Assembly (NCBI GenBank): GCA_030066685.1
Contig: JASJBF010000042.1
Span: 1-53,034 of the forward strand
Length of the DNA: 53,034 bases
From: Kiloniellales bacterium
GTDB taxonomy: Bacteria; Pseudomonadota; Alphaproteobacteria; Kiloniellales; JAKSBE01
Direction of reading: 5' to 3'
Numbering within the stretch: position 1 is the first letter of the stretch; the number at the start of each line of letters is the position of its first letter. The notes below the pieces were generated by a model. It ran no database searches. It saw only the letters and a list, made by a program, of their open reading frames with translations, and had not been told where the DNA came from. This document shows, piece by piece, positions 11,459 to 41,505 of the stretch. Made by a program: the position numbers and the translations under genes.

Positions 11459-13024
11459 TCACTTTGCCGTCATGGCCTCCCGCGGCAGCTTGATGTCGAA
11501 GGCCTCGCGCAGCCTGGCGTCGGCCGCGGCGTCGATATGCCCGGGATAGTGGCGGGCCAGGATCTCCCGGGTCTTGGCCCGCGCCCGCTCGACCACGTCG
11601 CTGGAGCCCGCCTCGGCCCACTCCTTGGGGCTGCTGCGGTCGCCGACCTCCGGGTAGACGTACTCGGCCTGCATCAGTCCCAGGGTCTGCTCGTGGCCGA
11701 GGAAGTGGCCCGGGCCCTGGGTGCAGACCTGGCGCATGGTCTCGACCGAGAGGCTGTCGGCGGTCACCTCTATGCCCCGGATGGTGCGCAGGATCGAGCC
11801 GATCATGTCGTTGTCGATTACCAGGCTCTCGAAGCAGAAGCCGAGCAGGCTGGCGTGCATGCCGGCGGCCTCGTAGATCAGGTTGGCCCCGGAGAGCCCG
11901 AGCAGGGCCTCGGTGTAGCCCTTCTCGTAGCCCGACTGGGCGTCCGGCAGCTTGGAATCGGTCATGCCCGCGGGGACCCCGGTCGGCAGGTCGTAGAACT
12001 GGCCCATCTGGGCGCAGGCCGCGGAGAGCAGGGCCTGCTCGCCGCTGCCGCCGCTCATGGCCCCGGTCCGCAGGTCCGAGACGAAGGGCCAGGGCCCGAA
12101 GATCGCCGGCGCGCCCGGGCGGATGGCGTTGACGTAGACCAGGCCGCCGAGGACCTCGGCGACCTCCTGGACCACCGCCCCGGCCAGGGCCGCCGGCGAG
12201 GTCGCGCCGGCCTGCCCGGCGGCCAGCAGCAGCACCGGCATGCCGCCGCGCACCGCCGCCTCCAGGCAGCGGCAGGCGTCCTCGGCGAAGGTCATGGGCG
12301 GCACCACGAAGCAGCAGGACATGGAGACGAAGGGCCGGGCGCGCCAGGCCGCCTCGCCGCCGGCGAGGGCGTGCAGCAGGGCCAGGGCCTCCTCGACGTG
12401 GGCCGGCTCGACGAAGCTGGTGCCGACGTGCTTTCGCGTCCCCGCGACGCAGGCGTAGCAGGTGTTGAGGTCGAGGTCGCGCGGCGCGACCATGTCGCGG
12501 GCGACCACCGGGCGCTGGAAGAAGTGGACGTGCTCCAGCGCGTCGGCCAGGCGGGCCGTGTCGTAGAGATCCCGGAGGGTCGATTCGCGATAGGCGCCGG
12601 TCTCAGGATCGACGACGTGGACCGCCGCGCCCGCCGTGCCGAAGTGGACCCGGGTGCCGCTGAGCTCCATGTCGAGCGCCGGGTCGGCGGCGTGCAGCAC
12701 GATGTTGCGCGCCGCCTTGGCCAGGGTGTCCTCGACCAGGGCGCGCGGGATCACCAGACGGCCCTCGTCGGTCAGCCGCGCCCCGGCCGCGGTCATCAGC
12801 TCGACGCAGCTGGGAATCGCGTCGGCGAAGCCGATCTGCTCCAGCACGTCGAGGGCGGCGCCGTGGATGCGCTGCACCTCGGCCTCGGTCAGGGGATGGT
12901 AGCGGCCACCGGGCAGGCCCGGCCGGACCGGCCGGGCGGCCTCGGGTATCGGGGCCGCGCGCAGCTCCCGCCGCGCGGCCCGGCCGCCGCGGCGGCGGCG
13001 TGAAGAGACCTCGGCTTCGCCCAT
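11459..13024 (-). CDS. MttB-family (non-pyrrolysine) trimethylamine/betaine methyltransferase
   Basis: A 521-residue member of the MttB superfamily (COG5598), which transfers a methyl group from a quaternary or tertiary methylamine to a corrinoid protein. Recognisable segments are PLTEAEVQRIHGAALDVLEQ near the start, then RVHFGTAGAAV, then VSMSCCFVVPP and ARAKTREILARHYPG near the end. No in-frame TAG interrupts the frame, so this is a non-pyrrolysine member, like glycine betaine methyltransferase MtgB. No corrinoid protein or tetrahydrofolate methyltransferase gene is adjacent. The ATG at 13024 follows GGAGG closely; the open frame upstream of it is not needed. It is divergent from the small membrane protein at 13226. 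The cobB and cobA genes at 47.7-50 kb could supply the corrinoid. Confidence 0.85.
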   Translation of the reverse strand: MGEAEVSSRRRRGGRAARRELRAAPIPEAARPVRPGLPGGRYHPLTEAEVQRIHGAALDVLEQIGFADAIPSCVELMTAAGARLTDEGRLVIPRALVEDTLAKAARNIVLHAADPALDMELSGTRVHFGTAGAAVHVVDPETGAYRESTLRDLYDTARLADALEHVHFFQRPVVARDMVAPRDLDLNTCYACVAGTRKHVGTSFVEPAHVEEALALLHALAGGEAAWRARPFVSMSCCFVVPPMTFAEDACRCLEAAVRGGMPVLLLAAGQAGATSPAALAGAVVQEVAEVLGGLVYVNAIRPGAPAIFGPWPFVSDLRTGAMSGGSGEQALLSAACAQMGQFYDLPTGVPAGMTDSKLPDAQSGYEKGYTEALLGLSGANLIYEAAGMHASLLGFCFESLVIDNDMIGSILRTIRGIEVTADSLSVETMRQVCTQGPGHFLGHEQTLGLMQAEYVYPEVGDRSSPKEWAEAGSSDVVERARAKTREILARHYPGHIDAAADARLREAFDIKLPREAMTAK

Positions 13025-13225
13025 CGCCACCTCCGGAGCGGAAGATATGCCTCGCCGCGCCCCGGAGTTGCGCACGACTCGGCCGGCTTCGTCAATTCTC
13101 AGAAGCGGCAATACTTTGTTGTTTGCGCCTTCGTAGTTAACGAGTGAAGTCTTGCACACGGTTGTATTAAAAACTCAAGGCCACTACTATGTCGGGAACC
13201 CCTGGTCAAAAAAGGGAAGGTATTC

Positions 13226-31328: not shown

Positions 31329-31422
31329 GGGACGAGCCTAGCCGGCTTTGCCTCGAGGGTCACCGCTGCCGCACGGGATACGGGAAGAAGTCCCTAGAAC
31401 TTGGTTTCCTAGCTCGTGATCT

Positions 31423-31521
31423 CACCCCCACCCCACCCTCCCCCATCAAGGGGGAGGGCTTAAGTGTCGGCGACCGAAGAATCTCCCTCTCCCTTGATGG
31501 GGGAGGGTTGGGGTGGGGGTG
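31423..31521. repeat. long C/G-rich inverted repeat (dispersed-type)
   Basis: Left arm 31423-31458 starts CACCCCCACCCCACCCTC and contains CCCCCATCAAGGGGG; right arm 31484-31521 is nearly its complement, ending GGGTTGGGGTGGGGGTG. The loop is about 25 bp. Sequences of this type are dispersed in many proteobacterial genomes. It lies between two minus-strand genes. Confidence 0.75.
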
Positions 31522-31550
31522 GCTCTCGAAAGTGTGCAAGTGAGCACTGG

Positions 31551-38908: not shown

Positions 38909-39987
38909 CCGCCGGCGCCGCGCCGACGCCGGGCAAGATCGGCGCGACGCCCGGCCGGGTCGCCCTCGCCCTCGCCATCGGCAGCCTGGGCGGCGCGGCG
39001 GCCCAGGCGGCGGAGCTGCCCCTGGCCTGGATGATCGGCGCCATGCTGGCGACCACCCTGGCCGCCGCCCTGGGCCTGCCGGTCGCCATGTGGCTCGGCC
39101 TGCGCGCGGTCATGGTCACGGTCCTCGGCGTCATGCTGGGCAGCGCCTTCTCGCCGGAGATCCTGGATCGGCTCCTGGAGTGGGCGGTCTCGCTGGCCTG
39201 CTTGGTGGTCTACGCCGGCGTCTCCGGCGCGCTCTGCCTGCAGGCCTTCAAGCACCTGGCCCGCTTCGATCCGGTCACCGCCTACTTCGCGGCAATGCCC
39301 GGCGGCCTGGCCGAGATGACCCTGGTCGGCGGGGCCATGGGCGGCGACGAGCGGGCGATCTCGCTGATCCATTCCGCCCGACTGCTGATCGTGATCCTCT
39401 GCCTGCCCTTCGCCTTCCAGCTGCTGGCCGGCTACGACCCGGCCCTCAAGCCGGCGGCCGGCGATTCGCTCACCGCGATCGGCGGGGCCGACCTGGTGAT
39501 CCTGGTCGCCTGCGGGGCGCTGGGCTACCTCGGCGCCCGCGCCCTCGGGATCCCGGCCGCCCCGGTGGTCGGCCCGATGGTGCTCTCGGCCATCGTCCAC
39601 CTCGCCGGCGTCACCGCGGCGGGGCCGCCGAGCGAGCTGATCGCCGCTGCCCAGGTCATCGTCGGCAGCGCGATCGGCTGCCGCTTCGCCGGGATCGGCC
39701 GTGCCTTCGTCCAGCGCGCGGTCGCCGCCGCCCTGGGCGGCACGGCGATCCACCTGGTCACGACCCTGGCCTTCGCCGGCGCCCTGGCGGCGCTCACCGG
39801 CCTCGACTTCGGGGCCCTGGTCCTGGCCTATTCGCCGGGCGGCCTGGCGGAGATGAGCCTCATCGCCCTGGCTTTGGGCTCGGACGCTGCCTTCGTCGCG
39901 ACCCATCACATCTTCCGAATCTTTACCATCGTGGTCCTGGCGCCGGCCGCCTTCCGGCTGCTGCGCAGGCGCAACCATGCCGGGTAG
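38905..39987 (+). CDS. AbrB-family membrane protein (COG3180 transporter)
   Basis: A 360-residue inner-membrane protein with about ten spans in two similar halves. Both halves contain PGGLAEM (FAAMPGGLAEM and YSPGGLAEM), the hallmark of the AbrB/AmoA-like family. Overlaps the preceding gene (ATGA). Transported compound unknown; coupling with two amidohydrolase-type genes suggests a small organic or amino-acid derived compound. Confidence 0.88.
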   Translation: MTAGAAPTPGKIGATPGRVALALAIGSLGGAAAQAAELPLAWMIGAMLATTLAAALGLPVAMWLGLRAVMVTVLGVMLGSAFSPEILDRLLEWAVSLACLVVYAGVSGALCLQAFKHLARFDPVTAYFAAMPGGLAEMTLVGGAMGGDERAISLIHSARLLIVILCLPFAFQLLAGYDPALKPAAGDSLTAIGGADLVILVACGALGYLGARALGIPAAPVVGPMVLSAIVHLAGVTAAGPPSELIAAAQVIVGSAIGCRFAGIGRAFVQRAVAAALGGTAIHLVTTLAFAGALAALTGLDFGALVLAYSPGGLAEMSLIALALGSDAAFVATHHIFRIFTIVVLAPAAFRLLRRRNHAG

Positions 39988-40106
39988 ACCCGTGACAAAA
40001 AGGGCGGAATCCAGCACGGAACAGACCCTTTTTTGACACACCTATGCCGCCGGCTTTCTGAGCATATTGTCCTCGGACCTCGGTTCGCGTCGGAAGTGCT
40101 GATGCA

Positions 40107-40235
40107 GTCGAGATCCGGGAGAGCGACCCACAACGTCGCCTTTGTCTGGGGTTAGCCGCCAAAGCCCGAAGACGAAGGCGCTTCTCCCGAGGACGCGGTT
40201 CGCCGCGACGGTGTGGGTTTAGTCGACCGGAGCTC
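40107..40235 (+). ncRNA. candidate structured (possibly pseudoknotted) RNA
   Basis: Several complementary arms can form together. Outer GTCGA (40107-40111)/TCGAC (40223-40227); CGGGAGA (40116-40122)/TCTCCCG (40183-40189); a 10-bp stem CGCCTTTGTC (40137-40146)/GACGAAGGCG (40171-40180, one G-U) that extends with GGG/CCC; a CGCGG-TTCG-CCGCG hairpin at 40194-40207. ACCCACA (40126-40132) is exactly complementary to TGTGGGT (40212-40218), which crosses the CGGGAGA stem as a pseudoknot. No known RNA family (RNase P, 6S, SRP, tmRNA) is recognised. Strand is assumed; the stems work on either. Confidence 0.45.
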
Positions 40236-40299
40236 AAAGCGGAAGTTTTTCCTAGCCTGGAGAGGGTGAGCGCGGATTTAGAGGTTACTGCCGCCAGCC

Positions 40300-40371
40300 A
40301 CGGTCCCTGCTGTGCTGCCCGCTCAAGATCGTCCGCCCCCCGTGCGGTCAGGGCAAAACAGCGGGGACCGT
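40300..40371. repeat. REP-like hairpin, 72 bp
   Basis: ACGGTCCCTGCTGT (40300-40313) pairs with ACAGCGGGGACCGT (40358-40371), one G-U; inside, GCCC/GGGC and CCGC/GCGG stems. Resembles RAYT-linked REP palindromes. A run ATCTTTTC follows. Confidence 0.55.
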
Positions 40372-40402
40372 ATCTTTTCAGGCCCCTTTTTCCCGCAACA
40401 GA

Positions 40403-40419
40403 CCCCGGCTCGGCCGGGG
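40403..40419. terminator. GC hairpin next to SDR stop
   Basis: CCCCGGC-TCG-GCCGGGG immediately after the SDR gene (minus strand). A plausible transcription end; on the minus strand AAAAAGG follows about 13 bp on, not a U-run. Confidence 0.45.
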
Positions 40420-40421
40420 CC

Positions 40422-41222
40422 TCAGGCCATCTTGGCGGTGATGCCGCCGTCGACCACCAGCTCGGCGCCGGTGATGTACTTGGCCTCGTCGCTGGCCAGG
40501 AAGAGCGCGGCGTAGGCGACGTCCCAGGCGTCGCCCATGTGGCCCATGGGGCACTGGGCGTCGCGCACCTCGACCATCTTCTGGACGTCGCCCTGGCCGT
40601 AGGCGCCCTTCAGGGGCTCGACGATCATCGGCGTGTTCAACAGGCCGGGCAGGATCGTGTTCGCGCGGATGCCCCGCTTCGCGTACTCCAGCGCGACCGA
40701 GCGGGTGAAGCCCAGGACCGCCGCCTTGGTCGCCGAATAGGAGACGTAGGGCACGCCGGTCCAGCGGATCCCGGCGATCGAGGAGATGTTGACGATCGCG
40801 CCGCCGCCCTGCTTGACCATGATCGGCAGCACCTGCTTGCAGGTCAGGAACATCGACTTGAGGTTCACCTCGACGACCCGGTCCCAGTCGGCCTCGGAGA
40901 TCTCGACCGGACCGCCGACTTCGACGATGCCGACGTTGTTGTGCAGGATGTCGACCCGGCCGAAGCGGTCAAGGCAGGACTGGACGATGGCCGCGACGTG
41001 CGCCGCGATCGAGACGTCGGCGACCTGCGCCGCGGCCTCGCCGCCTTCGCCCAGGATCAGGTTCAGGGTCTCGGCCAGGGCCGGGGTATCGATGTCGGTG
41101 CAGAAGACCTTGGCGCCCTCGCGGGCCATGAGCACCGCGGTCGCCTTGCCGTTGCCCCAGCCCGGCCCCGAAGACCCGGCGCCGGTCACGATCGCCACCT
41201 TGTCCTGCAGGCGTCCTGCCAT
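40422..41222 (-). CDS. short-chain dehydrogenase/reductase
   Basis: A 266-residue SDR. Cofactor motif TGAGSSGPGWGNG near 14-26 (an extended form of TGxxxGxG), HNNVGI, catalytic Ser in NISSIAG, and YSATK (Tyr-x3-Lys). The C-terminus VVDGGITAK is typical of classical SDRs. Substrate unknown; divergent from the creatinase gene with 283 bp between, which suggests it may be in a linked pathway, but a direct role is not shown. Ribosome site is poor. Confidence 0.9.
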   Translation of the reverse strand: MAGRLQDKVAIVTGAGSSGPGWGNGKATAVLMAREGAKVFCTDIDTPALAETLNLILGEGGEAAAQVADVSIAAHVAAIVQSCLDRFGRVDILHNNVGIVEVGGPVEISEADWDRVVEVNLKSMFLTCKQVLPIMVKQGGGAIVNISSIAGIRWTGVPYVSYSATKAAVLGFTRSVALEYAKRGIRANTILPGLLNTPMIVEPLKGAYGQGDVQKMVEVRDAQCPMGHMGDAWDVAYAALFLASDEAKYITGAELVVDGGITAKMA

Positions 41223-41360
41223 CCGAAAAGCCCCCCGATACGATCGCCTATCCTTGCAGGAAAGCGGCGGGCAAGAAAAGGCCGGCCGGGTGGCGTCGGC
41301 GGAAGCGCCCGGGTCGCAGGCACGCGCATGCCGGGCCGCGCGGCCGTGCTAAATCGGGAT

Positions 41361-41387
41361 GATTTGAAGCAGAACCGGCTTCAAATC
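41361..41387. repeat. 27-bp hairpin in divergent promoter region
   Basis: GATTTGAAGC (41361-41370), loop AGAACCG, GCTTCAAATC (41378-41387). Lies between divergent SDR and creatinase genes. Confidence 0.65.
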
Positions 41388-41411
41388 TGAATCCAGCTTT
41401 CCTTGAGCGGT

Positions 41412-41464
41412 TGAGAGCACGATTCAGATATGAGGTCGAGTCGACCTCTTATCATCGTGCTCTA
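41412..41464. repeat. palindrome with AGAGCACG ends, 53 bp
   Basis: AGAGCACGAT (41414-41423) pairs with ATCGTGCTCT (41454-41463), inner GAGGTCGA/TCGACCTC meets over one base. The right end has TA (CTCTA), the left has GA. Similar in style to the TA-bounded palindrome at 28198. Confidence 0.7.
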
Positions 41465-41505
41465 GGGAAGTCTCGAGACGGAGGACGCAGACAGGGGAGG
41501 CCGCC

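Follow-up and report, generated by a model that had tools for sequence, protein, structure and literature searches.

A candidate structured RNA with two folded domains downstream of abrB in one Kiloniellales genus

Lineage-restricted intergenic small RNAs exist in Alphaproteobacteria, and the element described here, in the genome of a Kiloniellales bacterium, resembles them in being present in one copy, intergenic, structured and confined to a short phylogenetic range; it differs from them in being known from sequence alone and in matching no Rfam family. HDV-like self-cleaving ribozymes form a nested double pseudoknot with a very short loop at the first hairpin stem. The order of complementary arms proposed for this locus in an initial annotation (stem 1, stem 2, hairpin, stem 1', hairpin, stem 2') is similar to that architecture, but the first hairpin stem here has 10-11 bp and a large loop, a nested fold is favoured, and no HDV-type family is among the nine weak Rfam matches to the region. 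The alpha_tmRNA, RNase P RNA and 6S RNA are likewise long and strongly structured; none of them matched in the window, the 53,034-nt stretch of DNA that was analysed. Each scores above its cut-off elsewhere in the genome, and a displaced housekeeping RNA was rejected on these three.

Genomic setting and phylogenetic range

The element lies in a gene-free gap of 434 nt between abrB, which ends at 39987, and a convergent SDR gene at 40422-41222, and its placement by the initial annotation in gene-free DNA downstream of the AbrB operon is therefore correct. A same-strand run of lysR, an M20 peptidase gene, an AstE-like gene and the AbrB-family permease gene precedes the gap. The sole homologue found is in a sister species of the same genus (G001), at the same place after abrB, with 93% identity over positions 3-399 of the gap query. 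The parts of the element, all on the + strand, are as follows.

40018-40383 (bounds approximate), +: conserved intergenic block of about 366 nt, the proposed structured RNA locus; 342 of 362 aligned positions identical in G001
40033-40038, +: TTGACA after a T-run, a possible -35 element; the surrounding 40018-40047 is identical in G001 at 30 of 30 positions
40107-40237, +: 5' folded domain, a nested junction fold covering the initially annotated interval plus 2 nt; 41 consensus pairs in 5 helices
40110-40121 (partner 40224-40235), +: 5' arm of helix 1
40116-40122 (partner 40183-40189), +: crossing arm A of the initial annotation; 6 of 7 pairs kept in G001; shares bases with helix 1
40128-40137 (partner 40207-40216), +: 5' arm of helix 2, with 5 of the 7 ACCCACA bases in the consensus fold
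40138-40179, +: helix 3, a long hairpin of 15 pairs; between the species two of these pairs vary, in each case as Watson-Crick versus G-U
40194-40207, +: UUCG hairpin, present in the sequence and with 4 of its pairs in the consensus fold
40256-40383, +: 3' folded domain, the best conserved part (126 of 128 positions identical in G001), outside the initially annotated interval

The T-run followed by TTGACA that had been described 5' of the element is present, and TTCTGA is found at 17-nt spacing from it. A scan of 39900-40460 scored no sigma-70-type promoter, TTGACA notwithstanding, and gave one terminator-like hit (0.6 expected) at 40123-40139, inside the initially annotated interval. In the same scan no terminator was scored at the 3' end of the block, where the T-run (ATCTTTTC) is weak. 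Directly 3' of abrB, an imperfect inverted repeat with an A-tract and a T-tract (39992-40039; 13-nt arms, 85%) forms a possible bidirectional terminator; in G001, two changes alter its 5' arm and permit another small hairpin.

The 3' flank differs between the species. In G001, the distance between the block and the SDR gene contains 3.5 kb more sequence, with a calcineurin-like phosphoesterase gene, smaller open frames and a palindromic repeat. The open frame nearest the block runs on the opposite strand and overlaps its last 61 nt; since this overlap passes partly through the palindromic repeat, the end of the frame may be spurious. The boundary of the deletion or insertion lies at 40384-40421 in the genome studied. 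A further genome of the genus, the third (G002), likewise has the phosphoesterase gene beside the SDR gene, so the genome studied has probably lost the 3.5-kb piece. Given this variable flank, the element is neither the leader of a conserved downstream gene nor tied to one: where a cis-regulatory leader or riboswitch would have a conserved same-strand gene directly 3', there is a convergent SDR gene here and an opposite-strand frame in G001. A hidden gene was also rejected, as none of the three block-overlapping open frames that were scanned gave a Pfam match.

The initial annotation had recognised no known RNA family and had proposed a search of family profiles, and the search agrees with it. 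At the gathering threshold, 4227 families of Rfam 15 gave a single match in the whole window, PYLIS_3 at 11866-11965, and a search of 39980-40430 at E values up to 10 returned the nine weak matches, each far below its gathering score. A literature search found nothing on the element. Covariance models of the 5' domain (R1) and the 3' domain (R2) both found matches in 2 of 61 genomes of the order, namely the genome studied (G000) and G001, and in 1 of 385 genomes drawn from the class, G000 itself, G001 evidently not being in the draw; these searches used stricter filters and scored part of the first-look candidates (at most 56 per genome for the order, 8 or 9 for the class), so that weak relatives could be missed. 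At 28 abrB loci from the 53 other genomes of the order with an abrB match, the best E values were 3.4 (R1) and 1.8 (R2), which we take as chance. G002, which is 81% complete, gave neither the block nor a match to abrB at E <= 1e-40; as in G001, the 3' end of the phosphoesterase gene precedes the SDR gene there, and the SDR contig starts within it, so the missing match need not mean that the block was never present.

At E <= 0.001 the block matches once in G000 and once in G001, and an exact 20-base pattern from it was found in one record among genome contigs, a Kiloniellales MAG contig. Phage and plasmid collections gave no match at E <= 0.01. A mobile or repeated element was rejected on this single copy and the absence of phage and plasmid matches; the weaker matches among those listed (E up to 1) are short and were taken as chance. 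The same holds for a 15-base word present in forty viral stretches, a 23-base word being present in none.

Nested fold and crossing arms of the 5' domain

The initial annotation had drawn a pseudoknotted RNA at 40107-40235 from complementary arms within about 130 nt, and all the arms that it listed are present in the sequence. Arm A (CGGGAGA, 40116-40122) pairs exactly with TCTCCCG at 40183-40189, and arm B (ACCCACA, 40126-40132), which crosses it, pairs exactly with TGTGGGT at 40212-40218. An additional stem, 40137-40147/40170-40180, is 91% complementary over 11 nt, and the UUCG hairpin that had been noted reads CGCGG-TTCG-CCGCG at 40194-40207. While the two crossing 7-bp pairings are real, they fail as evidence of a pseudoknot, since such arms are frequent by chance. 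Dinucleotide shuffling of the 129 nt gave at least one crossing exact 7+7 pair in 95 of 2000 sequences, and shuffling of the full 434-nt gap gave one in 39 of 200. Among 129-nt windows tiled over this genome (20 stretches of 20 kb and the 53-kb window), 295 of 3511 contain one. Exact 7-bp arms that cross one another are commonplace in GC-rich DNA and should not, alone, be read as pseudoknots.

The energies point the same way. The nested fold has -64.7 kcal/mol, and the pseudoknotted form, as a crude sum with arm A forced and arm B added, has -58.0 kcal/mol, a value that includes a duplex start term of 4.1 and becomes about -62 when the term is left out, in both cases before any pseudoknot loop cost. 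The pairing probability of arm A in the nested ensemble is 0.0, in an ensemble that excludes crossing pairs by construction. Comparison with G001 is in line with the nested plan: arm A reads CGGGAGC there, whereas most of arm B falls within helix 2, a helix that is continuous in G001, an A.G mismatch having become A-U, and the G001 sequence folded alone gives the same nested plan, also at -64.7. All 41 pairs of the nested consensus are standard in both species, and one pair of arm A is lost. We consider the pseudoknotted form as drawn very unlikely indeed. It is favoured by the exactness of both arms, by the six pairs that arm A still keeps in G001, and by a gap to the nested fold of only about 2.6 kcal/mol before loop costs when the duplex start term is omitted; it is opposed by the frequency of crossing arms of this length in its own genome, by a nested fold that is better by either energy sum, and by an arm A that overlaps helix 1 and has one pair fewer in the sister species. 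These folding models lend no support to the pseudoknot and make a nested element the probable one.

Conservation and strand-dependent folding

Across the block, 342 of 362 aligned positions (94%) are identical in G001, with 4 columns unaligned. Beyond the fully identical 40018-40047, identity is 52/59 at 40048-40106, 116/126 with 3 unaligned columns in the initially annotated interval, 18/19 at 40236-40255 and 126/128 at 40256-40383, where the two changes fall at positions 40324 and 40379. The initial bounds take in the 5' folded domain except for 2 nt but are too short, the best conserved part lying 3' of them. For comparison, four-fold degenerate sites of eight genes are 80-85% identical (189/232, or 82%, in abrB), and seven other intergenic stretches of at least 50 bp in the aligned segments are 74-88% identical, one of them reaching 87.5%. 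Against the abrB four-fold sites, Fisher's test gives P values of 9e-7 for the block, 5e-7 for the 3' domain and 0.008 for the initially annotated interval, all somewhat flattering because the bounds of the block were chosen after the profile had been seen. Identity above both the four-fold sites and the other intergenic stretches indicates that selection constrains change in the block, and most of all in the 3' domain.

In the 5' domain, the 41 pairs of the two-sequence consensus include 3 one-sided changes, each to or from G-U, and no two-sided change (0/41), and 3 of 82 paired columns are substituted against 9 of 46 unpaired columns; the count leans towards structure, as the only two sequences that exist also built the consensus, and two of the substitutions depend on the alignment of a 3-nt deletion. 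When 40107-40237 is folded from the window sequence only, 1 pair is broken in G001 against 4.8 expected (P 0.002), and on the - strand 2 are broken against 4.6 expected (P 0.057). Over 12 choices of bounds on the + strand, P ranges from <0.0005 to 0.48, with 0.002-0.0165 for folds that start at 40107. The range is 0.047-0.53 when G001 is folded instead (6 of the 12 choices mappable) and 0.005-0.62 on the - strand. Judged by these folds, pair preservation gives moderate support to a domain at 40107-40250 and none to a fixed fold of 40000-40106, and the 3' domain, with only 2 changes, is outside the reach of the test. That domain contains a long hairpin (40300-40320/40351-40371). A short extra pairing is seen there between GAGCG (40268-40272) and CGCTC (40320-40324), which the change C40324T would keep as G-U, an observation that rests on one change.

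Folding stability depends on the strand. The initially annotated interval has z -3.93 on the + strand, beating all 200 shuffles, and z -2.22 on the - strand (200 shuffles). With 40 shuffles, z on the + and - strands is -3.6 (-3.64) and -1.7 for the 5' domain and -4.2 and -0.7 for the 3' domain, in both cases from chosen frames. The longer stretch 40042-40385 has z -3.74 on the + strand, and 40000-40380 has z -0.59 on the - strand. The stability is also frame-dependent, as a random window from the same gap that cuts the domain (40143-40271) has z +1.35 on the + strand. As a background, 152 intergenic gaps, among them the one studied here, were delimited by a simple codon-usage gene caller written for the analysis, and one random 129-nt window from each was folded on both strands. 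Values of z <= -3.5 occur in 23 of these 304 windows (on some strand in 13 of the 152 gaps) and in 0 of 80 random windows. The other strand never rises above -2.3 in the 13 stable gaps; with both strands folding stably in each, these gaps look like palindromes, unlike the two domains described here.

Two palindromic repeats were seen elsewhere in the window. A long inverted repeat with C- and G-tracts at 31410-31540 gives z -11.0 on the + strand and -9.5 on the - strand for the 129-nt window at 31410, and a related stretch lies in contig C303 of G001. Between the SDR and M24 peptidase genes, a REP-like palindromic repeat (41339-41470) resembles stretches found at several sites in G002 and one in the same G001 contig.

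Proposed RNA and alternative readings

The lack of an Rfam match, the stronger fold of the + strand and the conservation above neutral level together support an RNA candidate outside known families, so that this part of the initial reading stands and its pseudoknot does not. In our model the element is probably a genus-restricted structured RNA with a nested fold, either a small RNA or an abrB 3' UTR element. The gap 3' of abrB would give rise to a two-domain folded RNA from the + strand, roughly 340 nt long (domains at about 40107-40237 and 40256-40383) and known to date from one genus. It could be transcribed alone or cut from the 3' end of lysR-M20-astE-abrB transcripts, and the very conserved 3' domain, loops included, may be where a target RNA or protein is contacted. 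That the block is a lineage-specific, two-domain regulatory RNA of the + strand, whose transcription, ends and action in trans we infer, has in our estimate not quite an even chance. The fuller description, an RNA of about 340 nt outside Rfam and confined to one Kiloniellales genus whose 3' domain binds a protein or a target RNA, is put forward more tentatively. If real, it would be one more lineage-specific regulatory RNA, from a little-studied group and with an unusually conserved 3' domain.

We take a small RNA as the first choice over a structured 3' UTR of the abrB operon that only ends or protects the mRNA and separates the convergent genes, with no action in trans, which we judge somewhat unlikely. 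Such a 3' UTR would fit an element that directly follows abrB and meets an opposite-strand gene or open frame in both species; 3' ends could be provided by the hairpin with A- and T-tracts at 39992-40039 and by the strong 3' hairpin, and no promoter was scored. Against it, identity at 126 of 128 positions, through the loops of the 3' domain, would exceed what a terminator or protective hairpin needs, and R1 and R2 did no better than the chance-level values given above at the 28 other abrB loci of the order. The small RNA also remains preferred to a DNA-level element or a mobile-element remnant (a palindromic repeat or an old insertion) kept by chance or by DNA binding. This is improbable, even in a genome that holds palindromic intergenic repeats and with a 3' boundary that coincides with the 3.5-kb difference between the species, given one match each in G000 and G001, a fold whose strength is largely confined to one strand, in contrast to the 13 other stable gaps, and collections of phages and plasmids that gave no match. 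More improbable again is a slowly changing intergenic stretch that has no function and folds by chance: only two genomes are compared, another intergenic stretch reaches 87.5% identity and 13 of the 152 gaps fold as well on some strand, but 94% identity over 362 aligned positions stands against 82% at the abrB four-fold sites.

Elsewhere in the window, the PYLIS_3 match at 11866-11965 (- strand; 56.8 bits, cut-off 38) lies within an open reading frame of 566 aa at 11459-13159 (- strand), which, going by the name of the RNA family, may encode a relative of MttB. The frame has no internal stop, so the protein may lack pyrrolysine, and a pyrrolysine gene is the less likely reading.
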